A stretch of 32,349 nt of DNA from an uncultured Pseudomonadota bacterium. GTDB lineage: Bacteria > Myxococcota_A > UBA796 > GCA-2862545. The number at the start of each line of letters is the position of its first letter. The stretch's first letter is position 1. The DNA lies in the NCBI GenBank assembly GCA_903861005.1, contig CAIOSP010000092.1, forward strand, positions 1 through 32,349, given 5' to 3'. Below, piece by piece: positions 4,698-32,349 of the stretch. The notes beneath the pieces are model-generated. The model did not search any database, was not told where the DNA came from, and saw nothing but the letters and a program-made list of their open reading frames with translations. The position numbers and the translations under genes are program-made.

Positions 4698-6182
4698 ATG
4701 TCCGACACGTCCGAGCCGATCTCCATCGACGTCGTCCTGGTGGGCGCCGGGTTCGGCGGTCTGTGCGCGGCCATCAAGCTGCGCGAGGCCGGCCGCAGCG
4801 TGCTGATCCTGGAGAAGGGTCAGGACGTCGGCGGCACCTGGCGCGACAACACGTACCCGGGTGCGGCCTGTGACGTGCAGTCGCACCTCTACTCGTTCTC
4901 GTTCGCGCCCAAGACGGACTGGTCGCGCCGCTACGCAGGCTGGGAGGAGATCCTCGCCTACATCCGCGGCGTGGTCGATCAGTTCAACCTGCGCCCGGTG
5001 ATCCGCCTGGGACAAGAGGTCATCGGCGCCACGTTCGACGCGAGCGCCGCGCGGTGGACCGTCACCACCCGCCAAGGCCTGCGCGTCACGGCCCGCTACG
5101 TGGTGCTGGCGACCGGCCCGCTGCACGTGCCCGCCATCCCCAACCTTCCTGGCCTGGACCAGTTCCAAGGGAAGGTGTTCCACTCGGCGCGCTGGGATCA
5201 CGACTACGACCTGACCGGCAAGGACGTCGTGTCGATCGGCACCGGCGGCAGCGCCATCCAGTACGTGCCGGAGATCGCCCCGATCGTTCACAAGTTGACG
5301 GTGTTCCAGCGGTCGGCCGCCTGGGTCATCCCGCGCGACAACCGCGAGTACAGCGCCGCCAAGAAGCGCCTCTACGCCGCCGTCCCCCTCGCCCGCGCCG
5401 CGCACCGCAGCGCGCTCTACTGGCGCAACGAGTCCCGCGGCCTCGTGATGTTCGCGCCCGGCGTCGCGCGCGCGGCGCAGAAGCTCGCCACGCGCTTCAT
5501 CCGCATGCAGGTCAAAGACCCGGCCGTCGCCGCGCGCCTCACGCCCGACTACACGCTCGGCTGCAAGCGGGTGCTGATCTCGAACGTCTACTTCCCTGTG
5601 TTCAACCGTCCGAACGTGGAGCTGGTGACCGACGGCATCCGAGAAATCCGCGCCCACTCGATCGTGTCGTCCGCCGGCGTCGAGCGGCCCTGCGACTGCC
5701 TCATCCTGGGCACGGGCTTCGTGGTCGATCCGCGGATCTACATGAAGGGGTTTGAGGTGGTCGGCCTGGGCGGTCGGCGCCTCGCCGACGACTGGAAGAA
5801 CGCGCCCGAGGCGTACTTTGGCGTCACGGTCGCGGGGTACCCCAACCTGTTCCAGCTGGTCGGCCCCAACACCGGCCTGGGCCACAACTCGATCGTGTTC
5901 ATGATCGAGGCGCAGGTGCACTACCTGGTGCGGCTGATGGCGTTGATCGACGCGCGCCACGCCGACTACGCCACCGTGCGCGCCGACGCGCAGCGCGCGT
6001 TCAACGACGACCTGCAGGCCAACCTCAAGGGCACCGTGTGGGAGACCGGCTGCGCCAGCTGGTACCGCACCGCTGAGGGTCGAAACATCTCGCTCTGGCC
6101 GTGGTCCACGTGGCGCTACTGGCTGCGGATGCGCACGCCGGACGCGGCCGCCTACGACTTCGGCAAGGGAACGCGCGCGTAG
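4698..6182 (+). CDS. Flavin-containing monooxygenase, Baeyer-Villiger type
   Basis: 494 residues, the usual size for a type I Baeyer-Villiger monooxygenase, a cytosolic FAD/NADPH enzyme that inserts oxygen next to a ketone to give an ester or lactone. Visible motifs in order: FAD Rossmann GAGFGG (16-21); the BVMO signature GGTWRDNTYPGAACD (45-59); the fingerprint FxGxxxHxxxW as FQGKVFHSARWD (156-167); and the NADPH Rossmann GTGGSA (181-186). The C-terminal part keeps the GPNTGLGHNS segment typical of the family. It converges on the HEAGH membrane protein, with the coding ends overlapping by 31 bp. It stands alone on this strand, but given the nearby steroid-like operon a cyclic ketone or steroid substrate is plausible. 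That is inference. Confidence 0.9.
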   Translation: MSDTSEPISIDVVLVGAGFGGLCAAIKLREAGRSVLILEKGQDVGGTWRDNTYPGAACDVQSHLYSFSFAPKTDWSRRYAGWEEILAYIRGVVDQFNLRPVIRLGQEVIGATFDASAARWTVTTRQGLRVTARYVVLATGPLHVPAIPNLPGLDQFQGKVFHSARWDHDYDLTGKDVVSIGTGGSAIQYVPEIAPIVHKLTVFQRSAAWVIPRDNREYSAAKKRLYAAVPLARAAHRSALYWRNESRGLVMFAPGVARAAQKLATRFIRMQVKDPAVAARLTPDYTLGCKRVLISNVYFPVFNRPNVELVTDGIREIRAHSIVSSAGVERPCDCLILGTGFVVDPRIYMKGFEVVGLGGRRLADDWKNAPEAYFGVTVAGYPNLFQLVGPNTGLGHNSIVFMIEAQVHYLVRLMALIDARHADYATVRADAQRAFNDDLQANLKGTVWETGCASWYRTAEGRNISLWPWSTWRYWLRMRTPDAAAYDFGKGTRA

Positions 6183-6892
6183 GGACCGGTCGGGCCCGCC
6201 TCGCGCGAGGTCAGCGCGACCAGCAAACCCGCGACGTTCGCCGCGACCAGCGCCGCCACGCCGAGCGCCACCGTGATCCAGGCGAGCCGCTCGACGGTCA
6301 GCTCCGGGAACTGCTTCGCCAGGACCAAGAAGTCGTTGTCGATCCCGAACCCGTTGCCGCCGGGCTTGCTGTACGCGACACGGTACGCCTCGTCCGTCGC
6401 GATCCGCGCGCAGACGCCCACCGCGTCGAAGACCATCGAGAAGCCGGCGAACGCGATGAGCCCCAGGTCCGCCCCCGCCGCCGTCCACGACGCGAACACC
6501 AGCCCGCTCCCGATCAGCACCGCGCCGCCGTTGCCCATGTACGCGCTCACCGGCGCAGACAGGCCCAGGGCCGCCAGCACGCCCAGCGCCGCGGTGCAGG
6601 CGAGCGCGGGCAGCACCACCCACGGCCTGCCACGCCCCGCCGCCACGCTCGTCGCGGTCAGGGCCACCAGCACCACCACCTGCACCGTCCAGCTGAACGT
6701 CCAGTGGATGGTCAGGTACGGCACGGGGAAGCTCGGCACGCCGAGCAGCCAGCCGGAGACGGCGTGACCGGCCTCATGGCCCGCCATGCCGATCACGTGC
6801 GCGAGCACCGGGAACACCGCGTAGAGCAGCGCCGACACCACAAAGGCCGCGCCGATCATGACCGCACGCCAAAGCCAAGTCGGCCCGCTCAT
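6152..6892 (-). CDS. M50-like polytopic membrane protein with HEAGH motif
   Basis: 246 residues. The motif HEAGH (39-43), sitting in a hydrophobic helix and followed by AVSGWLLGVP, is the HExxH zinc site of M50-type intramembrane metalloproteases. About five to six hydrophobic helices follow. No clear second NxxPxxxxDG motif of classical site-2 proteases is visible, so it belongs to a divergent M50-like group or is an inactive relative. It begins 71 bp after the globin-P450 gene on the same strand, so it could be the last operon member or separate. The intervening DNA contains the perfect palindrome CGCGACGTCGCG at 6939-6950. The 3' end overlaps the converging flavin monooxygenase by 31 bp. 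Confidence 0.7.
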   Translation of the reverse strand: MSGPTWLWRAVMIGAAFVVSALLYAVFPVLAHVIGMAGHEAGHAVSGWLLGVPSFPVPYLTIHWTFSWTVQVVVLVALTATSVAAGRGRPWVVLPALACTAALGVLAALGLSAPVSAYMGNGGAVLIGSGLVFASWTAAGADLGLIAFAGFSMVFDAVGVCARIATDEAYRVAYSKPGGNGFGIDNDFLVLAKQFPELTVERLAWITVALGVAALVAANVAGLLVALTSREAGPTGPYARVPLPKS

Positions 6893-6963
6893 GTTGGATC
6901 CAGGAGCGTCACGAGACCCCGCCTGGACCCGATCCTACCGCGACGTCGCGAACGACGCGCGGC

Positions 6964-8664
6964 TCACTTCGCGGAGAACTCGACCGGCAGGCTGGTGAGG
7001 CTTCGCACAAAGCACGAGCGCAAGCGCACCGGCGGCGCGTCGGCGCTCATGTGGATGTCCGGCAGGCGGCGCAGCAGCGCCTCCAGGGCTAGGCGCGTGT
7101 CCAGGCGCGCGAGCGAGGCGCCGGGGCAGTAGTGCTTGCCGATGCCGAACGAGAGCGCGGGCTTCTCCGGATCGCGGCGCACGTCGAACACGTCGGGCTC
7201 GTGGAAGGCGCGCGGGTCGCGGTTGGCGGACGGGTAGAGCAGCACGATCTCCTCGCCGGCGCGGATGGTCTTGCCGTGGAACTCGACGTCCTGCGTCGCC
7301 GTGCGGCGCATGCGCACGAACGGACACGAGTAGCGGATCATCTCCTCGACCGCCGCGTTGAGGACCTCGTCGTTGTCGACGTTGGCCACCAGGTACGCGA
7401 GCTGTTCCGGGTGGGCCATCAGCCCCTGCATACCGATCGCGATCGCCGAGCGCGTGGTCTCGCTGCCGCCGACGAGGAGCAGGTTATGCTCCCACAGCAG
7501 CATGTCGTCGGTGAGCTTCTGCCCGTCGACCTCGGCCGCCAGCAGCGCGGACACCAGATCCTTGCCCGGGCAGGCGCGACGCTCCTCGATGATCGACTCG
7601 TGGAAGCCGTGGAAGTTGGCGAACGCGTCCACCACCTCCTCGGTCACGCCGGCGGGGCCGTTGCCGCCGCCGCAGTAGATGTCGGTCCAGTCGAGCACGT
7701 CGCCGACGATGTCCTCGGGATAGCCGAGCATGTCGGCGATCACGCGGAACGGGAGCGGGCGCGAGAACTCCTTCACCAGATCGGCCGAGCCGCGGGCGAT
7801 GAAATTGTTGATCAGGCCGTCGATGATCTCGCGGATGCGCGGCTCCAGCTCCTCGACGCGGCGCGGGGTCAGCGCCTTCGAGACGAGCGCGCGGCGGCAG
7901 GTGTGCTCGTCGCCGTCCTTGTTGATCATCGCGTCGTCCGGCCAGATGTCCAGGCCCAGCTTGGGGATGACTCCCTGGCCGCTGCAGAACAGGTCGGTGC
8001 GGCGCGACACCCACATGATGTCGTCGTAGCGCGACACGGCCCACATCTCGTTGTGGCGATCCCAGAACAGCGGCTCCTCGTCGCGCAGCCACGCGTAGAA
8101 CTCCCACGGGTCCTCGGTGTGCAGGTCGAGCGAGAGCAGGTCGGCGTTCTCGAACTCGTCGCGGCGCGTGTCGGACGGCGCGACCGTGTGGTCCTGCGGC
8201 GCCGCGGCGGCGATCGGCGTGGCGTGCGCCGGGTCCTTGGCGATGCCCGAGCCACGCATCATGCGCAGGGCGACCTCGTCGAGGCTGGCGCGCCACTCCG
8301 CGGCGTCCGCCGCGGTCCAGTCGTCGGCGAGGACCTCGGCCAGCGCGCCCACCAGCGCATCGACTGCGAGCGGGTACATGTGCGAACACACCTCGTACTC
8401 GGTGTGCCGCGCGCCCAGCTCCGCCAGGTCCTTGTTGATCCAGCCGGTGGTGTCCGTCAGATCGATCACCGCCGAGAGCATGCGCAGGAGCATCTCCTTC
8501 TGCTTCTCGCGGGATTGGTGCCCGAACAGCGGCTTGATATCGGGGTGCGCCGCGAACAGGCGCGCGTAGAACACGTCGAGCAGCGTCTTCATGCGCTCGT
8601 CGACGCGATCGAGGGTGTGCTCAAAGCGCGAGCGCGTGCTGCTGTCGGTTTCGGCCATGCTCAT
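6964..8664 (-). CDS. Globin-cytochrome P450 fusion protein
   Basis: One uninterrupted 566-residue frame. Residues about 10-138 are a flavohaemoglobin-type globin: VFYARLF with B10 Tyr33, PLF with CD1 Phe47, E7 Gln55 in EKQKEML, and the proximal F8 His87 in ELGARHTEYEV. An Ala/Pro/Asp-rich linker (about 139-170) leads into a complete P450: I-helix VGGSETT (398-404), ExxR at E441-R444, RMRRTA, and the haem loop FGIGKHYCPG with ligand Cys513. The P450 part resembles bacterial CYP125/CYP142/CYP124-like enzymes that oxidise steroid side chains and other isoprenoids. No FAD/NAD reductase domain follows the globin, unlike in flavohaemoglobins. The start at 8664 has an AAGGA site spaced 7 that overlaps the TAA of the preceding gene. 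It is last of five tightly packed genes. The substrate and the globin's role are unproven. Confidence 0.93.
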   Translation of the reverse strand: MSMAETDSSTRSRFEHTLDRVDERMKTLLDVFYARLFAAHPDIKPLFGHQSREKQKEMLLRMLSAVIDLTDTTGWINKDLAELGARHTEYEVCSHMYPLAVDALVGALAEVLADDWTAADAAEWRASLDEVALRMMRGSGIAKDPAHATPIAAAAPQDHTVAPSDTRRDEFENADLLSLDLHTEDPWEFYAWLRDEEPLFWDRHNEMWAVSRYDDIMWVSRRTDLFCSGQGVIPKLGLDIWPDDAMINKDGDEHTCRRALVSKALTPRRVEELEPRIREIIDGLINNFIARGSADLVKEFSRPLPFRVIADMLGYPEDIVGDVLDWTDIYCGGGNGPAGVTEEVVDAFANFHGFHESIIEERRACPGKDLVSALLAAEVDGQKLTDDMLLWEHNLLLVGGSETTRSAIAIGMQGLMAHPEQLAYLVANVDNDEVLNAAVEEMIRYSCPFVRMRRTATQDVEFHGKTIRAGEEIVLLYPSANRDPRAFHEPDVFDVRRDPEKPALSFGIGKHYCPGASLARLDTRLALEALLRRLPDIHMSADAPPVRLRSCFVRSLTSLPVEFSAK

Positions 8665-8665
8665 G

Positions 8666-8678
8666 GTGTGTCCTTAGG
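8666..8678 (-). promoter_or_regulatory. Shine-Dalgarno overlapping upstream stop, fixes start of globin-P450 gene
   Basis: On the minus strand CTAAGGACACACC precedes the ATG at 8664. The AAGGA core overlaps the TAA stop (8676-8674) of the extradiol dioxygenase gene, so the two genes are translationally linked. This selects the first ATG over the in-frame ATG six bases later, so the globin domain is translated from its natural N terminus. Confidence 0.7.
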
Positions 8679-9549
8679 GTGCGTCGACCGGCATGTGGCC
8701 CCACAGGGCCACGCGGTCGTAGGTGGTGGTAGACCACGTGGTGTCGTCGACCTCAAGCCCGCCCCAGCCGATCTCGATCTGGAAGCCGGCGGGGGTGCGG
8801 ACGTAGAACGACACCATGCGATCGTTGGGATGGCGCCCGAGCGTGGTCGCGTTGACCTGCGCGCGGACCGCGCGGTCGTAGGCGCGCCCCAGGTCGTCGA
8901 GCGTGGCCACCTGAAGCATCATGTGGTGCATGCGCGCGGGAATGGGACCGGCGAGCGCCACGCTGTGATGGCGCGAGTTCGTCCGCATGAAGGCGATGTC
9001 GACGTCGATGTCACCCGCGCGGCAGGTGATCCGGTCCGACAGCTTGAGGCCGAGCAGGTCGCCGTAGAAGCGCTCGCTCGCGCCGCGCACGTCAGAGCGG
9101 ATGGCCGCGTGGCCGAGCCCCTGCCCGCCCGTCACGAACCCGCCCTTGATCTTGGGCGAGACGAATGGGTCCGGGTGCAGCGTCTCGTCGACGACGAATA
9201 GCTCGCCAGGCACACCCGCCGGATCGACGAACGCGACCACGCGCCGCGCGCCGCGCGAGTGCGCCCAGTCGGCCGCGAGCTCAGTGGTCGTGACCCGAAG
9301 CGACGCGACCAGCGCGTCGAGCGTCGCGTCGTCCGCCGCCTGCCAGCCCAGGTAGGCCAGATCGTTTCGCTCGCCTTGGTGCACGCGGATGCGGTGCGAG
9401 CGCTCGTCCATGCGCAGCGCGCGCGCGGCGCCCTGGACAGGCACCGACACCATGCCCAGCACACGCTCGGCGAACGTGGCGAAGGTGTCCGGATCGGACA
9501 CCGACAGGCCCACGTAGCCAAGCTGCAGCGGTCGCACGGCGGCGGTCAT
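8674..9549 (-). CDS. Extradiol ring-cleavage dioxygenase, HsaC/BphC type
   Basis: 291 residues, the typical size of two-domain vicinal-oxygen-chelate dioxygenases such as HsaC and BphC, which cleave a catechol next to its hydroxyl pair using Fe(II). The C-terminal catalytic module shows the metal ligands H147 (GLGHAAI), H209 (RMHHMMLQV) and E259 (FQIEIGWGG), the acid-base histidines at 194-195 (NSRHHSVAL) and Tyr249. The ending WGHMP is also typical. In steroid degradation HsaC opens the catecholic ring A of the seco-steroid. The ATG overlaps the previous stop as TGATG. The neighbouring HsaA-like hydroxylase would make its catechol substrate, which supports the assignment. A biphenyl-type substrate remains possible. 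Confidence 0.9.
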   Translation of the reverse strand: MTAAVRPLQLGYVGLSVSDPDTFATFAERVLGMVSVPVQGAARALRMDERSHRIRVHQGERNDLAYLGWQAADDATLDALVASLRVTTTELAADWAHSRGARRVVAFVDPAGVPGELFVVDETLHPDPFVSPKIKGGFVTGGQGLGHAAIRSDVRGASERFYGDLLGLKLSDRITCRAGDIDVDIAFMRTNSRHHSVALAGPIPARMHHMMLQVATLDDLGRAYDRAVRAQVNATTLGRHPNDRMVSFYVRTPAGFQIEIGWGGLEVDDTTWSTTTYDRVALWGHMPVDAP

Positions 9550-10745
9550 CAGAGGAACAGGTCGGTGTTGTCGAGGCCGAGCATCACGCCGCCAAAGTTC
9601 AAGCCGGGCTTCTCCGGCTTGTTGGCGAAGTGCGCGCGGATCGCGTGCGCGTCCTGGAAGAAGCGTAGGATCTCCGACCCGTCGAAGATCGCGCGACCGC
9701 CCGCCGTGGTGAACAGCCCGTCCACCGCGTCGCAGCAGCGCTGCACCGCACGAGACGACTCGTAGCGGAACTGCGCCCGGCGCTCGAGCGGGATGGGCTG
9801 ATCGCGACGCGCGTAGTCCATCATCTCGGCGAACGCGCGGTCGAGGACCGCCTTGCACTCGTCGAGCGTGGCCGCCGCGTCGGCGCACGCGGCCTGCGCC
9901 ACGGCCTCACCCGCCACCTTGGCCCCGCTGGACGCGGCGACGCGCTGGCGCGCCACCGACGTGTACGCGTCGAGCGCGCCCTCCAGCACACCCAGGATGG
10001 TGGACGACACGGAGCGCACGAACACCTGGCCGAACGGCAGGCGGAAGAGCGGCGCGTCGAACACGGCGCGGCCCGGGTTGCGCCCGGTGAAGCCGTCGAT
10101 GAACTTGTGCGTGCGGTGCTCGGGCACAAACGCGCCGTCGACCACGATGTCCTTGCTGCCGGATCCGACCAGCCCGGTCACGTGCCAGTTGTCCTCGATG
10201 CGCCAGTCGGCGCGCGGGAGCAGGAAGGTGCGCATCTGCGGCGCGCCGTCGGGCGTGGCCGGGGGCACCATGCCGCCCAGGAAGATCCACGAGCAGTGAT
10301 CGCAGCCGCTGGAGAAGGACCAGCGACCCGACACGCGGAACCCGCCCTCGACCGGCTCGATTCGGCCGGTGGGCGCGTACGACGACGCGATGAGCGCGTC
10401 CGGATCGTTGCCCCACACGTCGTGGTGCGCGGCCTCCGGGAAGAGCGCGAGCTGCCATGCGTGGACGGCGAGCACGCTCATCACCCACGCGGTGGACGGA
10501 CAGCCCCGGCCCAGGTTGGCCTGCACGGCGTAAAGCGTGCGCGGGTCGGCCTCGTGGCCACCCCACGCGCGCGGCTTGAGCAGGTCGAAGAACCCGGCGG
10601 CGCGCAGCTCGGCGATGGTCTCGTCGGGCACGCGGCGCAGCTCACGGGTCAGCGGGATGCGCGCCTTGAGCGTGGGGATCATGTCGATCGCGGCGCGAAC
10701 GAACGCGCCATCGTCGAGCGTCGTCACGGTGGCGAGCTCAGCCAT
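9549..10745 (-). CDS. Flavin-dependent hydroxylase, HsaA-like (acyl-CoA dehydrogenase fold)
   Basis: 398 residues with the acyl-CoA-dehydrogenase fold of group D flavin monooxygenases (HsaA/HpaB-like oxygenase component). The N-terminal helical domain (RVPDETIAELRAAGFFDLL, then PRAWGG) is followed by the strand region SGRWSFSSGCDHCSW (about residues 135-149), which is characteristic of HsaA-type proteins, and a C-terminal helical bundle. Such enzymes ortho-hydroxylate a phenol using reduced flavin from a separate reductase (HsaB in actinobacteria); no such reductase is in the window. The start overlaps the end of the second Rieske gene by 8 bp. Its position immediately before the extradiol dioxygenase matches hydroxylation then ring cleavage. 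Confidence 0.87.
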   Translation of the reverse strand: MAELATVTTLDDGAFVRAAIDMIPTLKARIPLTRELRRVPDETIAELRAAGFFDLLKPRAWGGHEADPRTLYAVQANLGRGCPSTAWVMSVLAVHAWQLALFPEAAHHDVWGNDPDALIASSYAPTGRIEPVEGGFRVSGRWSFSSGCDHCSWIFLGGMVPPATPDGAPQMRTFLLPRADWRIEDNWHVTGLVGSGSKDIVVDGAFVPEHRTHKFIDGFTGRNPGRAVFDAPLFRLPFGQVFVRSVSSTILGVLEGALDAYTSVARQRVAASSGAKVAGEAVAQAACADAAATLDECKAVLDRAFAEMMDYARRDQPIPLERRAQFRYESSRAVQRCCDAVDGLFTTAGGRAIFDGSEILRFFQDAHAIRAHFANKPEKPGLNFGGVMLGLDNTDLFL

Positions 10746-11703
10746 GGAGGGCCTCCATACGCTTGGCCTCGGGCTGGTAGAAGGTGCGGTACCACTGGCG
10801 CAGCTTGATCAGCGGGCCGTCGGCGTCGCACAGCACCGGGTGATCCTTGGTGTGCATGTTCTCCCAGATGCGGATGTCCTGGAAGAAGCCCTGACGCAGG
10901 TTCTCGACGTACTTGGCGAGGAAGGCCTCATCGAGCATGACACCGTCACGCTTGCGCACCGACACGGCGAAGCGCAGCAGCAGCGTGTTCTCGTCGATCG
11001 GCGTGTGCGCGTTGATGAGGTGGCTCTCGAGGTAGCCCTTCATGTGCGTGTACTGCCAACCCGGCCCATGGTAGGTCGCGCGCAGCGAGTACTTGTCCTT
11101 GCCGCCGCCGAGCGGGTACGCCGTGCCGCTGTTGATCTGCGTCGCCATGTGGCCTGTGAACTCGTTGGAGATCGTGTCGACGTGCGTGCCGTGCACCGGG
11201 ATGAAGTGGCCGACGTCGACCACGTTCTCCACGATCTCGCGCGGGTGCGTCTTCACGATGATCTGGCCGAAGGACCACGGCGTCCAGTCGGGGGTGCCGT
11301 GGCCTTCGACCGCGGGGATATTCCAGGTCGGCGCGCCCTTCGCGCGGTCGTGCCACACGAACAGCATCCCGTCGTGCTCGTCCACGGGCCAGCAGTCGAT
11401 CTTGGCGCGCGGCGGGATCTTGGTCGCGTACGGGATGGTGGTGCACTCGCCGTCGCCGTTGAACTCCCACGCGTGGAACGGGCAGCGGACGCTCTCACCG
11501 TCGACCACGCCGCCGTAGCCCAGGTGCGCGCCCATGTGCGGGCAGTAGGCGTCGAGCACCTTGGCCTGACCGGCCGCCGTGCGGAACAGCACCAGCTCCT
11601 TGCCGAAGAAGGTGACGGGCTTCACCTCGCCGACCGCGAGCTCCTCGCTGAAGCAGACGAGGAACCAGCCGCTCGCGAAGCCTTGGAAGGACGTGTCGCT
11701 CAT
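10738..11703 (-). CDS. Rieske oxygenase, KshA-like (second copy)
   Basis: 321 residues from the ATG at 11703, which overlaps the previous stop as ATGA. The N-terminal Rieske domain has the [2Fe-2S] ligands C54/H56 (CPHMGAH) and C74/H77 (CPFHAW). The catalytic domain has N160, D163, H166 and H171 in ENVVDVGHFIPVHGT, the bridging Asp and the mononuclear-iron histidines. Near the C terminus the block QDIRIWENM followed by PVLCDADGP and QWYRTFY closely matches the 3-ketosteroid 9-alpha-hydroxylase oxygenase KshA. KshA takes electrons from a ferredoxin reductase (KshB), which is absent here. It is clearly paralogous to the gene just upstream. Confidence 0.88.
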   Translation of the reverse strand: MSDTSFQGFASGWFLVCFSEELAVGEVKPVTFFGKELVLFRTAAGQAKVLDAYCPHMGAHLGYGGVVDGESVRCPFHAWEFNGDGECTTIPYATKIPPRAKIDCWPVDEHDGMLFVWHDRAKGAPTWNIPAVEGHGTPDWTPWSFGQIIVKTHPREIVENVVDVGHFIPVHGTHVDTISNEFTGHMATQINSGTAYPLGGGKDKYSLRATYHGPGWQYTHMKGYLESHLINAHTPIDENTLLLRFAVSVRKRDGVMLDEAFLAKYVENLRQGFFQDIRIWENMHTKDHPVLCDADGPLIKLRQWYRTFYQPEAKRMEALHG

Positions 11704-12737
11704 GCGCCCTCCCCCGGGCCCGCCATCGGGCGACCGTAGAAGGCCTGGTAGGTCTCGCGCACGGAGGAGTCCGGGTAGAACTGCTTGCACCACACGCGGA
11801 AGCGACCGATGGGGCCGTCACCGTCGCACAGCAGCGGCGGGTCGATGTAGATCTTGTTCTCCCACACCGGCGTGTCCTGCTCAAGCTGACGCGCGATCTC
11901 GGCGACGAACGCGCGGCCGATGCCCTCGGTGATGTCGCGGCCGCCGAACTTCTTCACGACGAAGCTGAAGCGCACGTCGACGAACTCGTCGTCCACCGGG
12001 CAGACGGCGCCGATCAGCAGCGTCTCCACCAGGCCGGTGAAGCGGTTCACCGAGAAGCCAAAGCCATGCGCGGACACGTCGAGGTTGCCCTCGACCTCAC
12101 CGTGCGCGGTCTCCATGACGGTGATCGCCTTCACCTTGAAGAGCGGGCCCTCCACGGTGATCTCGGCGGGAGGCATGTTCTTGGTGCCGTGGAGGTACTT
12201 GAAGTGGGCCACGTCCACCATGTTCTCCGCCATCTCCTGGTTGTGCGTGCGGATGCGCCACACGCGGTGCCAGGCGGTCGACCACTTGTCGCTGGAGAAC
12301 TCGGGCAGGTCGGGGATCTCCCAGGTGGGCGCGCGCTTCTCGGCGTCGTGCCACACCATGATGCCGCCGTTCACTTCGTTCACCGGCCAGCAGTCGACCT
12401 TGGCGCGCGGCGGCACCTTCTGGGCGTACGGGATGGTCGTGCAGACGCCGTCCCCGTTGAATTGCCAGGCGTGGAACGGACAGACGAGCTCGTCGTCCTT
12501 GAGCACGCCGCCGTGGCCCAGGTGGGCGCCCATGTGCGGGCAGTAGGCGTCGAGGACCTTGATCACGCCGTCCGAGCGACGGAAGAGCACCAGCTCCTTG
12601 CCGAAGCGCGTCATCGGCACGACCTGGCCGACCGCCACCTCCTCAGACCACCCGATCTGGAACCAGCCCGTCGGGTACCGAGGAAAGGGAAAGCGGGGGC
12701 GGCCCGAAGAGGCCCGCTCGGAAACAGTCTTGTTCAT
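11700..12737 (-). CDS. Rieske oxygenase, KshA-like (first gene of operon)
   Basis: 345 residues from the ATG at 12737; an ATG at 12740 is also possible, but the GGAG site is better spaced (7) for 12737. Rieske ligands are C66/H68 (CPHMGAH) and C86/H89 (CPFHAW). The iron site is ENMVDVAHFKYLHGT (N172, D175, H178, H183), and the C-terminal block QDTPVWENKIYIDPPLLCDG with DGPIGRFRVW is strongly KshA-like. KshA hydroxylates C9 of 3-ketosteroids, which triggers opening of ring B. It heads the operon and lies 50 bp downstream of the KstR-like palindrome. Two KshA-type proteins in a row suggest two substrates or two positions of attack. Confidence 0.9.
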   Translation of the reverse strand: MNKTVSERASSGRPRFPFPRYPTGWFQIGWSEEVAVGQVVPMTRFGKELVLFRRSDGVIKVLDAYCPHMGAHLGHGGVLKDDELVCPFHAWQFNGDGVCTTIPYAQKVPPRAKVDCWPVNEVNGGIMVWHDAEKRAPTWEIPDLPEFSSDKWSTAWHRVWRIRTHNQEMAENMVDVAHFKYLHGTKNMPPAEITVEGPLFKVKAITVMETAHGEVEGNLDVSAHGFGFSVNRFTGLVETLLIGAVCPVDDEFVDVRFSFVVKKFGGRDITEGIGRAFVAEIARQLEQDTPVWENKIYIDPPLLCDGDGPIGRFRVWCKQFYPDSSVRETYQAFYGRPMAGPGEGA

Positions 12738-12787
12738 CATGACTCCGTCGTCGTCCCCGCCCATGGGGAACGCCCTCGACGTGACAG

Positions 12788-12862: not shown

Positions 12863-13372
12863 GTGGCGAAGGGTCCAGCGCCGGTGATCGTGGTGGATGC
12901 CCGCGGGATGGTCTCCCGCGTGAGCACGTCCGCTCACGAGGCCCTGGGACCCAGCTCGGGCCGCCGCTGCTCCGAGGTCGTCCGCATGCGCGGCGTGCGG
13001 GGCGAGGCCGGCTGCTACCCCGGCTGCGCGGCGGATCTGACGAAGAACGGCGGCGCCCAGAGCAGCGTCGGCACGGTGCGCGGCGCCCTGCATCGCGTGT
13101 CGTGCTCGAGCGTGGGCGACGGCGTGGTGGTGGTGCTGGAGGAGGTCGATGCCGAGCTGCCCGAGGCCAGCCTGCCCTCCGCGCGCGAGCTGGAGGTCCT
13201 CGCCCTGGTGGCGACGGGCATGACCAACGTGCAGGTCGCGGCCCAGCTCGGCGTGTCCTTCGCCACCGTGCGCACGCACATGGAGCACGTACGGGCCCGC
13301 CTGGGCGCGCGCACGCGGGCGGAGGCGGTGGCCAAGGCCGTGGCGCTCGGGCTGTTCAGCCAGCCCAAGTAG
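12863..13372 (+). CDS. LuxR-type transcription regulator with Cys-rich PAS-like sensor domain
   Basis: 169 residues from a GTG with GAGG spaced 6. Residues about 5-95 look like a reduced PAS domain (PVIVVDARGMVSRV at the start, VGDGVVVVLEEV at the end) carrying a Cys pattern: C36 in GRRCSEVV, then C51 and C55 in GCYPGCAADL, plus C81. Residues about 103-165 are a LuxR/GerE helix-turn-helix (SARELEVLALVATGMTNVQV, then FATVRTHMEHVRARLGARTR). The Cys set suggests redox, metal or NO sensing, but no cofactor can be assigned from sequence. It is divergent from the oxygenase operon and shares its promoter region, so it probably regulates it. The gene ends 18 bp from the converging histidine kinase. 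Confidence 0.85.
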   Translation: MAKGPAPVIVVDARGMVSRVSTSAHEALGPSSGRRCSEVVRMRGVRGEAGCYPGCAADLTKNGGAQSSVGTVRGALHRVSCSSVGDGVVVVLEEVDAELPEASLPSARELEVLALVATGMTNVQVAAQLGVSFATVRTHMEHVRARLGARTRAEAVAKAVALGLFSQPK

Positions 13373-17249: not shown

Positions 17250-18485
17250 CTAGTCGACCGGCAGGCGGTCGGGGAACGCGATGGCCAGCTGCTGTCGTAC
17301 GCGACCCCAGTGCGGGATGGGCATCTCCCACTTCTTCGCGGCGCGGTCGATCGCGAGCCACAGAAGCTTCATCACCGAGCCGTCCGTCGGGAACGCGCCG
17401 CGCGTCTTTGTGATTTTGCGAAGCTGACGGTTCAACGCCTCGATGGGGTTCGTCGTGTCGATGGCGCGGCGCAGCTCCGGCGGGAACGCCAGGAACGGCG
17501 ACACCCGCGCCCAATTCGACCGCCACGACGCGCCGATGCTGGGGTACGCCTTCGCCCACTTGGTCTCGAAGGCGGTCAGCGCATCCAGCGCGGCCTGCTC
17601 GTTGAGGGCGGCGTACACCGTGCGCAGGTCGCGCGTCAGCGCCTTCTGGTCCTTCCAGTTCACGAAGCGCGTGCTGCTGCGCACCATGTGGACCACGCAC
17701 GTATGCACGACCGTGCGCCCGAACACGGCCTCAATGGCCTCTGGCAGGCCCTTCAGGCCGTCGCAGCAGGCGACCAGGATGTCCTGGACCTCGCGCTGCC
17801 GCAGGTCGCTGGCAACCTGCATCCAGAACTTCGCGCCCGCGGTCTGGGCCATCCACATGCCGAGCACGTCCTTGTGCCCGTCTGAGTCGACGCCCAGGAC
17901 GATGTACACCGTCTTGTTGCGCACCATGCCTTCGTCACGCACCCGCACGACGAACCCGTCGAAGTAGACGATGGCGTACACGGCATCCAGGGGCCGAGTC
18001 TGCCACGCCCGCACGTCGTCCATCACCTGGTCCGTGACGCGCGAGATGAGGTCGGGACTGACGTCCACGTCGTACATCTCCTTCACGTGCTCCTGGATCT
18101 CGCGGACGGACAGGCCGCGCGCGTAGAGCGCGATGACCTGGTCATCGAAGCCGGCGATGCGACGCTGGCCCTTCTTCACCAGCTGCGCCTCAAACTCGCC
18201 GTCGCGGTCGCGCGCCACGTCGAGCTCGAGCGTCTCGTCCGCGACGATGACCCGCTTCGTGTTGTGCCCGTTCCGCGAGTTGTCCCCGTTGAAACCCTCC
18301 GGCGCGTGCTTGTCGTACCCAAGGTGCGCCGACATCTCGGCCTCGAGCATGCTCTCCAGGGCGGCCTTCTTCAGCTTGGTGAAGAGGCCGTCCTTACCAA
18401 ACAGCTCGTCGGTGGTCTTGAGGTCCTTGACCAGCTCGCCAATCAGCTCGCGGGCCCGGTCGGTCTTGTCTCTCGTCTTGGGCAT
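17250..18485 (-). CDS. IS256-family (mutator type) transposase
   Basis: 411 residues, full length for the family. DDE catalytic residues are visible: D176 (VYFDGFVV), D242 (ACCDGLKGLPEA) and E349 (TTNPIEALNRQLR). Conserved flanking blocks are also intact: RSSTRFVNWKDQK and KITKTRGAFPTD. The N-terminal region (DGLFTKLKKAALESMLEAEM and NGDNSRNGHNTK) is the usual DNA-binding part. No stop or frameshift interrupts it, so the element may be active. A strong AGGAGG lies upstream of the ATG at 18485 but within a hairpin. Confidence 0.95.
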   Translation of the reverse strand: MPKTRDKTDRARELIGELVKDLKTTDELFGKDGLFTKLKKAALESMLEAEMSAHLGYDKHAPEGFNGDNSRNGHNTKRVIVADETLELDVARDRDGEFEAQLVKKGQRRIAGFDDQVIALYARGLSVREIQEHVKEMYDVDVSPDLISRVTDQVMDDVRAWQTRPLDAVYAIVYFDGFVVRVRDEGMVRNKTVYIVLGVDSDGHKDVLGMWMAQTAGAKFWMQVASDLRQREVQDILVACCDGLKGLPEAIEAVFGRTVVHTCVVHMVRSSTRFVNWKDQKALTRDLRTVYAALNEQAALDALTAFETKWAKAYPSIGASWRSNWARVSPFLAFPPELRRAIDTTNPIEALNRQLRKITKTRGAFPTDGSVMKLLWLAIDRAAKKWEMPIPHWGRVRQQLAIAFPDRLPVD

Positions 18486-20827: not shown

Positions 20828-21165
20828 GCGCTGGGGTTCGGGTCGCGCGGAAGGACCGCGAGGGGCTGCAGAAGATCTGTCGGTACGTGCTGCGGCCCGG
20901 TCGGAAGGACCCGCCGTGGCGCTGTCGCGGCTCTACGCGCTCCCCGACGACCGCGTCCAACTGAGGCTCCGGCACGCGTGGGACGACGGGACGGAGGCGG
21001 TGGAGTTCAGCGCGTTGAAGATCGTGGGGCGCCTGGCCGCGCAGGTGCCGCCGAAGGGTCAGCACCTGATCCGCTCGGCCCGTACACGTTACGCGTGCCG
21101 GGCCCCTCCGGGGCGACGGGGTGTTCGCGCCGGCGTCGAAGCAGCCGTGGTCAGCGGCGATCTCC
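20828..21165 (+). pseudogene. IS91-family transposase remnant (middle part), frameshifted and interrupted
   Basis: One frame gives VARKDREGLQKICRYVLRP. A second frame, entered near 20905, gives LSRLYALPDDRVQLRLRHAW, EAVEFSALKIVGRLA and AQVPPKGQHLIR. This is the conserved core of IS91-type transposases, and the window's right edge carries the same block (EFSALEFVGRLAAQVPPKGQ). After LIR the expected YHGVFAPASK is interrupted by about 40 bp of foreign sequence (about 21074-21115), and FAPASK resumes at 21124. Two frame disruptions and the lack of both ends mark it as dead. Confidence 0.75.
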
Positions 21166-21189
21166 GAGCGGCCGCTGCGCATCGTCCAG

Positions 21190-21400
21190 GACATGCAGCC
21201 CAAGCACAAGCTGACGAAGCGCTCGAACGTCCGTGCCGTCATGCTCGCGATCGCCGCCGCAGGCGGTCACATCAAGAACAACGGCGAGCCGGGATGGATC
21301 ACGCTTGGACGGGCATTCGACGACATCCTGGATCGTGCGGCAGGCTGGCTCGCCGCGGAACGTTGGATGGCGAAGGCGCGGCCGTGGGTCGGGTTCTACG
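21190..21400 (+). pseudogene. IS4/Tn5-like transposase C-terminal remnant
   Basis: Directly after the IS91 remnant the frame reads MQPKHKLTKRSNVRAVMLAI, AAAGGHIKNNGEPGWITLGR and AFDDILDRAAGWLAAERW. The pattern GGHxKxNGEPGWxTLxR followed by an Asp-containing helix is the C-terminal block of IS4-family (Tn5-like) transposases, which follows the catalytic Glu region. Only about 60-70 residues remain and no start is present. Its fusion to the IS91 piece shows nested insertion and deletion at this spot. Confidence 0.6.
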
Positions 21401-21450
21401 ATCGCAATTCGACTTGTGATCGATGCTCCGGCGTTCCAGGCCGCTGCCGA

Positions 21451-30369: not shown

Positions 30370-30474
30370 ACCATTCAAACCAATGTGGCGAGGTCGTCTC
30401 GGGGCCGCAGCCCGGCGAGGGCGCGACGCGACCCCGCTCACCCCGTCGCCCGCGCGTACCACCCGTCCACGGCG

Positions 30475-30690
30475 GAGCACAGGCAAAACAATCTCCTTCC
30501 CCCGCTTCCGAAGGTCGTCCACAGCACGTCCGCACCCGCGATCCCCGTCTGCGCGCCCCACTCACCCGTGCTGCGAGCAGCAGCACCCACCCTGGCGCGC
30601 CCGCCCGGAAGGACTTGGTGCTGACCCTTCGGAGGCACCTGCACAGTCAGGCGCAACGCGAACTCCACCGCCTCGTCTCCAGACTCGAAC
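30475..30690 (-). pseudogene. IS91-family remnant with internal deletion, repeat copy B
   Basis: On the minus strand DEAVEFALRLTVQVPPKGQH matches the IS91 transposase core (EAVEF...VPPKGQH) seen at 20.9 and 32.3 kb. It then jumps to TGEWGAQTGIAGADVLW and the terminal segment GGRRLFCLCSA, which corresponds to the 3' end of the element. The shared terminal repeat runs 30475-30575 and begins GAGCACAGGCAAAACA on the plus strand. The catalytic region between is deleted. Confidence 0.72.
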
Positions 30691-30703
30691 CACGGCGAGT
30701 CGC

Positions 30704-31399
30704 TCACGCCACGCGCGGCAGCACCGCGTCGGGGATCGCGTCGGCGCGGAAGGTTCGCGGACGGTTTCGCCACGCCCAGAGCGCCGCGAGCGGGATGAGC
30801 ACCGCGAGGAGCACAAAGCGCAGGACGAGAAAGGGATCCAGCGGCACAGGAATCACCATCATCACGACGGCGAGGAGGCTCACGCCAGCGGCACCGACGA
30901 TCACGTTGAGCGCGTACATGAGGCCCGATGCCCCACACCGGAACCGCGCGTCCGGACGCGCCTGGGCCGTCGCGACGACGAGCGCCCGCACCAGCGCCGC
31001 GTAGGTCGTGCGCCGGTCATCGAACCGACCAAAGCCCGCCCAGTGCGTCGACACGATGACCACGTCCCGCCCCGCACCCTGGACGTGGCACGCGTAGCGG
31101 TTGAGGTCCACGCGCGAGGCCTCCCACGCGAGCCGGAGTTGCTCGACGCGATCGAGCGGGATGGCGCCGCCTCCCGCGGCGTCGTCCCAGCGCAGCGCGC
31201 CGTCTGCGACACGCCATGTGCGCTCGGGCTCGAGCATGCTGCGGCGGACGGTGTGGCTCAACGTCATGTCGTGCGCCCAGGTTCCTCCGTCCACCTCACG
31301 CGGCAAGGTCTCGCGGTCCAGCACGGCCCGGGCGCATGCCAGGCAGCCCCACCGCGCGGCCCGAGAGGTTCCAGGTTGCCTGCTGGCCCCGTGGACCAT
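30704..31399 (-). CDS. Unknown protein with CxxC and two C-terminal membrane helices
   Basis: 231 residues from the ATG at 31399, which follows a TGAGG site overlapping the stop of the small upstream gene; an internal ATG at 31267 is an alternative start. The N-terminal part has WGCLACARAVLD (CxxC). The middle domain contains RTWRVADGALRWDD and DVVIVSTHWAGFGRF. Two hydrophobic helices lie near residues 158-178 and 183-205, and the end is RPRTFRADAIPDAVLPRVA. I recognise it only as a conserved hypothetical type. It is the second gene of a two-gene unit. Its 3' end abuts IS91 copy B. Confidence 0.65.
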   Translation of the reverse strand: MVHGASRQPGTSRAARWGCLACARAVLDRETLPREVDGGTWAHDMTLSHTVRRSMLEPERTWRVADGALRWDDAAGGGAIPLDRVEQLRLAWEASRVDLNRYACHVQGAGRDVVIVSTHWAGFGRFDDRRTTYAALVRALVVATAQARPDARFRCGASGLMYALNVIVGAAGVSLLAVVMMVIPVPLDPFLVLRFVLLAVLIPLAALWAWRNRPRTFRADAIPDAVLPRVA

Positions 31400-31712: not shown

Positions 31713-31815
31713 GAGCACAGGCAAAACACGCTCCTCCCCCCGCTTCCGAAGCTCTACCACAGCCAGTCGGCGACCGCGATCCCCTTCTGCACCCCCGGCT
31801 CACTGACCTGTCGAG
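31713..31815 (-). repeat. IS91-type terminal repeat, copy C
   Basis: Begins GAGCACAGGCAAAACACG on the plus strand. It aligns with copies A and B through the CCCGCTTCCGAAG and CGCGATCCCC blocks. It marks the downstream end of the IS91-type element. Confidence 0.7.
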
Positions 31816-32349
31816 CCCTTCCGCTCCGCGCCGGCCGGGGCCCCAAACCCGCCCGCCGACCCGCGCGCGCACCTACGCCTTCGCGGTCAACCCGCCGCAG
31901 CAGCCTGTCGATGTCCTCCCCCCGCCTCGCCCCGTCACCGAACCGACGACGTCGCCTGTGGGTCTCCGCGCGCCCGCGCCCCGAGCAGAACCAGGCCGCC
32001 CTGGGCAGCGCGCTCGTCGTCCAGCCAGCGCAGCACGTCGCCGCTCGCCGCCAGCACCAGCGCCACCTGACGCATCCGGCCGCCGCAGCCTGGGCAGGTG
32101 TGAGGGTCTTGCTTGAAGCCGGCTGGAAGAGCACCCGCAGGATCAGCTCACCCCAGGCGATCCAGCGCCGCCGCGGGCGGTCCAAGTACACCTCGGGCAC
32201 GTCCGCGCGACGACGGAGCACGGGCACGATCGCCGACCGCAGCTTCGACGCCGGCGCGAACACGCCATGGTAGCGGATCAAGTGCTGCCCCTTCGGCGGC
32301 ACCTGCGCGGCCAGGCGCCCCACGAACTCCAACGCGCTGAACTCCACCG
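31713..32349 (-). pseudogene. IS91-family transposase, 3' half, frameshifted (copy C, cut by window edge)
   Basis: From the right edge leftwards: EFSALEFVGRLAAQVPPKGQ, HLIRYHGVFAPASKLRSAIV, RRRWIAWGELILRVLF; then a frame change near 32105-32130 into DPHTCPGCGGRMRQVALVLA and LRWLDDERAAQGG, ending at a stop near 31950. The CPxCGGRM zinc site after WGELILRV is the standard C-terminal arrangement of IS91-type transposases. The terminal repeat lies at 31713-31815. The frame disruption makes this copy non-functional unless it is a sequencing error. Confidence 0.78.

Follow-up and report, generated by a model that had tools for sequence, protein, structure and literature searches.

Chimaeric globins are already known, as are P450 fusions, and P450 systems are usually described as a P450 plus its electron donors. 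Proteins of CYP102 and of the CYP116B type resemble the protein described here in joining a P450 to a second cofactor-binding domain; however, their partner carries electrons (a reductase or a ferredoxin), while the partner here is a globin and outside electrons are still required. Flavohaemoglobins and Vitreoscilla-type single-domain globins share with the fused globin their lineage, fold and the residues Tyr B10, Gln E7 and His F8, but the fused globin is without an FAD/NAD reductase domain, has a P450 for a partner and has its proximal Glu replaced. CYP125, CYP142 and CYP124, which are steroid C26 and branched-lipid hydroxylases, were the best full-length matches of the P450 half, but are single-domain proteins. 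The closest precedent for a globin-P450 fusion is SyNOS of Synechococcus PCC 7335 (PMC6104048), in which an N-terminal 3/3 globin stands on a haem-thiolate oxygenase, giving two haems per chain. The model of its globin was based on Hell's Gate globin I, which is also among the top fold matches of the globin described here. SyNOS differs in that its oxygenase is of the NO synthase (NOS) type and brings its own reductase domain, and in producing NO itself, whereas the present fusion has a P450. Since a globin is already linked to a haem-thiolate oxygenase in SyNOS, the globin-P450 architecture is not a wholly new category.

The fusion gene lies within the window, i.e., the whole stretch of 32,349 nucleotides that was analysed. 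The original prediction had assigned a single 566-codon frame to positions 6964–8664, which was right; the strand, which it did not give, is minus. The frame ran uninterrupted from an ATG at 8664 to a stop at 6964–6966, encoding 566 amino acids, and an AAGGA ribosome-binding site preceded the ATG; the plus-strand frame over the same interval was interrupted by a stop. A stop or frameshift between residues 138 and 175, named in the prediction as grounds for rejecting it, was absent from the sequence. Third-position GC stood at 0.93 for the globin part, 1.00 for the linker and 0.96 for the P450 part, and this uniformly high value shows that coding is continuous over the junction. The only start codons within residues 130–190 were Met135/136, in the last globin helix; GAGG, as read from the sequence, stands 11 nt before them, and a P450-only product may start here. 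The globin-P450 fusion is genuine, and chance is not an issue. A Pfam search of the whole protein, a check that had been proposed with the prediction, returned the Globin and p450 domains only, both over their curated cut-offs.

The globin domain occupied residues 10–138 (8251–8637, minus strand), with the match to PF00042 covering residues 32–132 (E = 3.9e-13). Tyr33 (B10), Phe47 (CD1), Gln55 (E7) and the proximal His87 were all present at the predicted positions. An AlphaFold2 model of the globin, built from an alignment of 14 sequences, had seven helices and a mean pLDDT of 89.6; its fold neighbours in the PDB were neuroglobin, Hell's Gate globin I and Vitreoscilla haemoglobin (VHb), with TM-scores of about 0.75–0.85. 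Thus, the structure search by which the prediction might have failed did find a globin fold. As judged from sequence and model, residues 10–138 are a 3/3 globin of the F/M (flavohaemoglobin) lineage, closest to VHb-type globins, and their distal Tyr B10/Gln E7 pocket is the same as that of VHb and Hell's Gate globin I. The predicted label 'flavohaemoglobin-type' was therefore borne out for the lineage, but not beyond it. An actual flavohaemoglobin was rejected: Pfam found no C-terminal FAD/NAD reductase domain, the flavohaemoprotein model NF009805 scored 39.8 bits, far under its cut-off of 432, and, by reading of the alignment, a Ser took the place of VHb Glu137, which stands third in the proximal triad of flavohaemoglobins. 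A globin-coupled sensor was likewise rejected, as the Protoglobin score was 15 bits where 25 are required and there was no signalling domain. In the globin tree the fused globin sat on a long branch and its placement was without support; it was the sole PF00042 globin found in the host genome.

Residues 139–174 (8143–8250, minus strand) formed the Ala/Pro linker that had been predicted to join the domains, as confirmed by its composition, and the full-length model, of mean pLDDT 78, showed disorder at residues 143–161. The P450 domain followed at residues 175–566 (6967–8142, minus strand; PF00067, E = 1e-30). The predicted motifs of a complete P450 were each found in place: GGSETT (399–404), which carries the I-helix acid-alcohol pair, ExxR (441–444), and the haem loop FGIGKHYCPG containing Cys513. 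The match to solved P450s covered residues 175–564, with CYP125, CYP142 and CYP124 nearest. By its sequence, this half is a cytochrome P450 in fold, ExxR, acid-alcohol pair and Cys haem loop alike, while its likeness to steroid C26 monooxygenases (CYP125/CYP142) is read as sequence similarity only. A self-sufficient P450 was rejected because Pfam found no fused electron-transfer domain, and a SyNOS-type globin-NO synthase because the oxygenase domain is a P450 and not a NOS oxygenase. Within the phylum, the P450s nearest to this half (54% and 51% identical) were unfused, and no globin was found near them on their short contigs.

Genome surveys covered about 1,170 genomes from three phyla, with P450s being sought in the flanks of the better globin matches. 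A second fusion was absent among the globin matches in 71 class genomes, including one from the same genus, in 379 genomes of the phylum (overlapping with the 71), in 396 genomes of Gordonia's phylum and in 398 of Jannaschia's phylum. It was absent also from the top 80 globin loci in a scan of 85,000 species genomes, made with a profile of four closer globins, a profile of 14 being too diverse. Long frames, the longest of 1,423 aa, surrounded other globins too; where flanks were examined, no P450 was in frame with the globin. The whole fusion protein had no match in viral contigs, and among 1,268 matching plasmid records none covered 80% of it. A described globin-P450 fusion was not found in an open-access full-text library. 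Within these surveys, the assertion that no such protein had been described held. The fusion is known from one genome, a draft assembly of 223 contigs, which is the chief weakness of the case.

The fusion was the last gene of a five-gene operon on the minus strand, with junctions ranging from a 1-nt overlap to a 9-nt gap. The operon begins with two Rieske oxygenases with KshA C-terminal domains, at 11700–12740 (PF19298, 3e-42, and PF00355, with motifs) and 10738–11703 (PF19298, 3e-55, and PF00355, with Rieske and Fe-ligand motifs intact). These are followed by an HsaA-like flavin monooxygenase (9549–10745) and an HsaC/BphC-like extradiol dioxygenase (8674–9549; BphC_D1 and Glyoxalase domains; TIGR03213, 268 bits, below cut-off), the stop of which is 9 nt before the fusion ATG. 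Both neighbours failed the NCBIfam equivalog tests, for HsaA (NF045629, 409 bits, cut-off 450) and for HsaC (NF045631, 196.7 bits of 450). Classified by family, the operon enzymes would carry out the O2-using steps of steroid ring opening. No reductase or ferredoxin gene was encoded beside the fusion. A flavin monooxygenase of Baeyer-Villiger type (4698–6182, plus strand; FMO-like, 244 bits to the Baeyer-Villiger model, below cut-off) possibly belongs to the same pathway.

A further steroid-type set was present in the host on contig C86 (G000:C86 1968–19600 and 31995–45614; L230, L231 and L198), without a globin. It encoded an enzyme resembling 3-ketosteroid dehydrogenase (581 bits against a cut-off of 789), acetaldehyde dehydrogenase, oxopentenoate hydratase and an unfused P450 about 40% identical to the fused one. 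Identity between C86 and the window operon was 51% for the HsaA-like enzymes, 45% for the extradiol dioxygenases, and 51% and 58% for the two KshA-like enzymes. The window operon is a second set, paralogous to the putative main steroid-degradation set on C86.

Several globin matches across the phylum adjoined a P450 gene. When a globin profile, drawn mostly from P450-adjoining globins, was run on 91 genomes of one class of the phylum, 22 matches were obtained, and a same-strand P450 lay within 1.5 kb of 11 of these (P450 first in nine, globin first in two). With the densest P450 content measured, 82 in 5.9 Mb, chance alone would give this at 2.9% of loci; the probability of at least 11 in 22 is about 7e-12 if loci are independent, but they are not, and seven pairs were within the profile, so the value gives just a rough indication. 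The paired P450s fell into three clades, with identities of 59–83% inside and about 24–29% between clades, and the paired globins formed three groups matching them; therefore, either the pairing is old or it arose more than once. Of the six clade-A pairs, four had a start codon of the globin frame overlapping the P450 stop as ATGA or GTGA, which suggests translational coupling. One clade-A pair occupies 6759–7946 and 7943–8440 of L038. Together, the 11 of 22 pairings, the three clades and the four overlaps point to a P450-specific globin partnership, and the pairs are the strongest of the new evidence. Among the best 80 loci of the 85,000-genome scan, one had a same-strand P450 within 1.5 kb, itself a known pair. 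Derivation of the fusion from a paired P450 clade was rejected, since the P450s with which the fused one grouped were unfused and came from its own class and phylum. Paired and fused P450s were 26–32% identical and, given this distance and the unsupported place of the fused globin, the pairs back the idea of partnership by analogy. Recurring P450-globin pairs were not found described, and they add interest beyond a single fusion.

Some pair-like loci stood apart. The clade-B loci L221 (G259) and L039 (G135) were 99% identical in P450 and ferredoxin although their genomes are assigned to different families; this near-identity reflects either recent transfer or a binning error, and the two may therefore count as one locus. 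At L220 (G343; 1518–2039), the globin beside a clade-A P450 matched in two separate pieces, perhaps through a frameshift or because the gene is decaying. L247 (1507–3205), from Gordonia's phylum, had a globin-containing gene directly downstream of a same-strand P450, with about 90 nt between the matches, and is possibly a flavohaemoglobin-P450 operon.

Divergent from the fusion operon was a LuxR-type regulator (12863–13372, plus strand; PF00196), with four Cys in its N-terminal region (C, CxxxC, C) that were conserved in homologues at P450-globin loci. These homologues lay between globin and P450 in L039 (5208–5723), about 4 kb off the pair in L040 (657–1205) and about 7 kb off in L038 (15221–15730); there was none in 121 other loci of at least 7 kb (Fisher P = 1e-4, although the loci are not a random sample). 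From its sequence, the regulator is possibly an Fe-S protein or a sensor of redox state or NO. The gene order in L039 (4Fe-4S ferredoxin, globin, LuxR-type gene, P450) suggests a putative module responding to redox state, O2 or NO. Related 4Fe-4S ferredoxins, 45–53% identical, occurred in L039 (4287–4685), L038 (15823–16200) and L047 (5373–5726), adjoining globin, LuxR-type or P450 genes; they are candidate electron donors common to P450 and globin. The window also contained an intact Mutator-family (IS256-like) transposase (17250–18485, minus strand; PF00872, 1.5e-111) and three short frames with the common motif QVPPKGQHL (about 20916–21419, 30438–30938 and 31754–32347). The last of these matched the end of the Y2_Tnp family, and IS91-like remnants are therefore likely.

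The explanation tentatively placed first, at a little under an even chance, is a two-haem protein in which a steroid-type or branched-lipid P450, encoded in a paralogous operon, has the globin as its dedicated gas-ligand partner for removing NO. It builds on the observed frame, globin fold, ligand residues, operon and globin-P450 pairing in relatives; the completeness of both domains, with all haem ligands, and the globin fold support two haems. We infer the substrate, redox partner and gas chemistry as follows. The P450 half would hydroxylate a steroid-like or branched-lipid substrate with electrons from a separate ferredoxin and reductase, an outside ferredoxin system being needed for turnover because no redox domain is present in the chain. 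The globin would be held ferrous through the P450's own electron supply, bind O2 tightly and oxidise NO, and this would spare the haem-thiolate centre from block or destruction. Irreversible inhibition of P450 by NO is reported in literature cited in PMC3820574, and for SyNOS, where a globin stands on a haem-thiolate oxygenase, NO removal is the proposal of its authors (PMC6104048). Counting for NO removal are this precedent, the O2-using, steroid-type operon and the VHb-like Tyr B10/Gln E7 pocket; against it count the lack of an adjacent reductase or ferredoxin, the distance of the paired P450s and the single genome. Copper nitrite reductase was over its cut-off in four of 11 pair genomes; none was found in the fusion host, which counts against NO removal.

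Alternatively, the globin might capture O2 at high affinity and raise its local level for the P450 when O2 is scarce, perhaps also for other operon enzymes, all of which are O2-using by family. An extra set beside the main one is what would be expected for use under another condition, and added Vitreoscilla haemoglobin eases oxygen limits in engineered sterol conversion (PMC10049677). However, in the relatives examined the partner of the globin was a P450, and pairing with Rieske or extradiol enzymes was not seen. Moreover, a single O2 per chain provides little storage, and globins with a Tyr B10/Gln E7 pocket tend to slow O2 release. O2 supply was accordingly considered rather unlikely, and NO removal slightly favoured over it, since NO removal does not require the globin to let go of tightly bound O2 and copper nitrite reductase occurred in those four pair genomes. 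That a ligand at the globin alters P450 conformation, switching the P450 by O2 or NO, was thought improbable: globins do act as sensor domains in other proteins, and several P450-globin loci come with a LuxR-type gene that has conserved Cys, but this is not a sensor-family globin by its Protoglobin score and a flexible linker of 36 residues, as modelled, would transmit little. An error joining separate globin and P450 genes in one contig would account for the restriction to a single 223-contig assembly and for absence from the 71 class genomes, including that of the same genus; yet frame and codon composition were continuous over the junction between two complete domains, the gene followed its operon neighbour by 9 nt with a ribosome-binding site, and P450-globin pairing recurred among relatives, leaving such a chimaera very improbable. 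Electron transfer from globin haem to P450 haem, for which two haems in one chain and the ferredoxin gene ahead of the globin in L039 might speak, was judged the most improbable, as no globin was found near the unfused 54% and 51% relatives and we know of no precedent for a globin reducing a P450.

More generally, and with slightly less than even confidence, globins are proposed as unrecognised dedicated partners of certain bacterial P450s, beside ferredoxin and reductase. They would serve several unrelated clades, usually as adjacent and often translationally coupled pairs, in part with a possible O2-, NO- or redox-sensing regulator, and be fused here as a two-haem enzyme. The P450-globin pairs offer several independent, clonable systems for direct tests of function. 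If the proposal is true, the globin would be a natural extra P450 component and a new way of managing O2 or NO at a haem-thiolate centre, and would be nature's counterpart of the addition of Vitreoscilla haemoglobin to steroid bioconversions.
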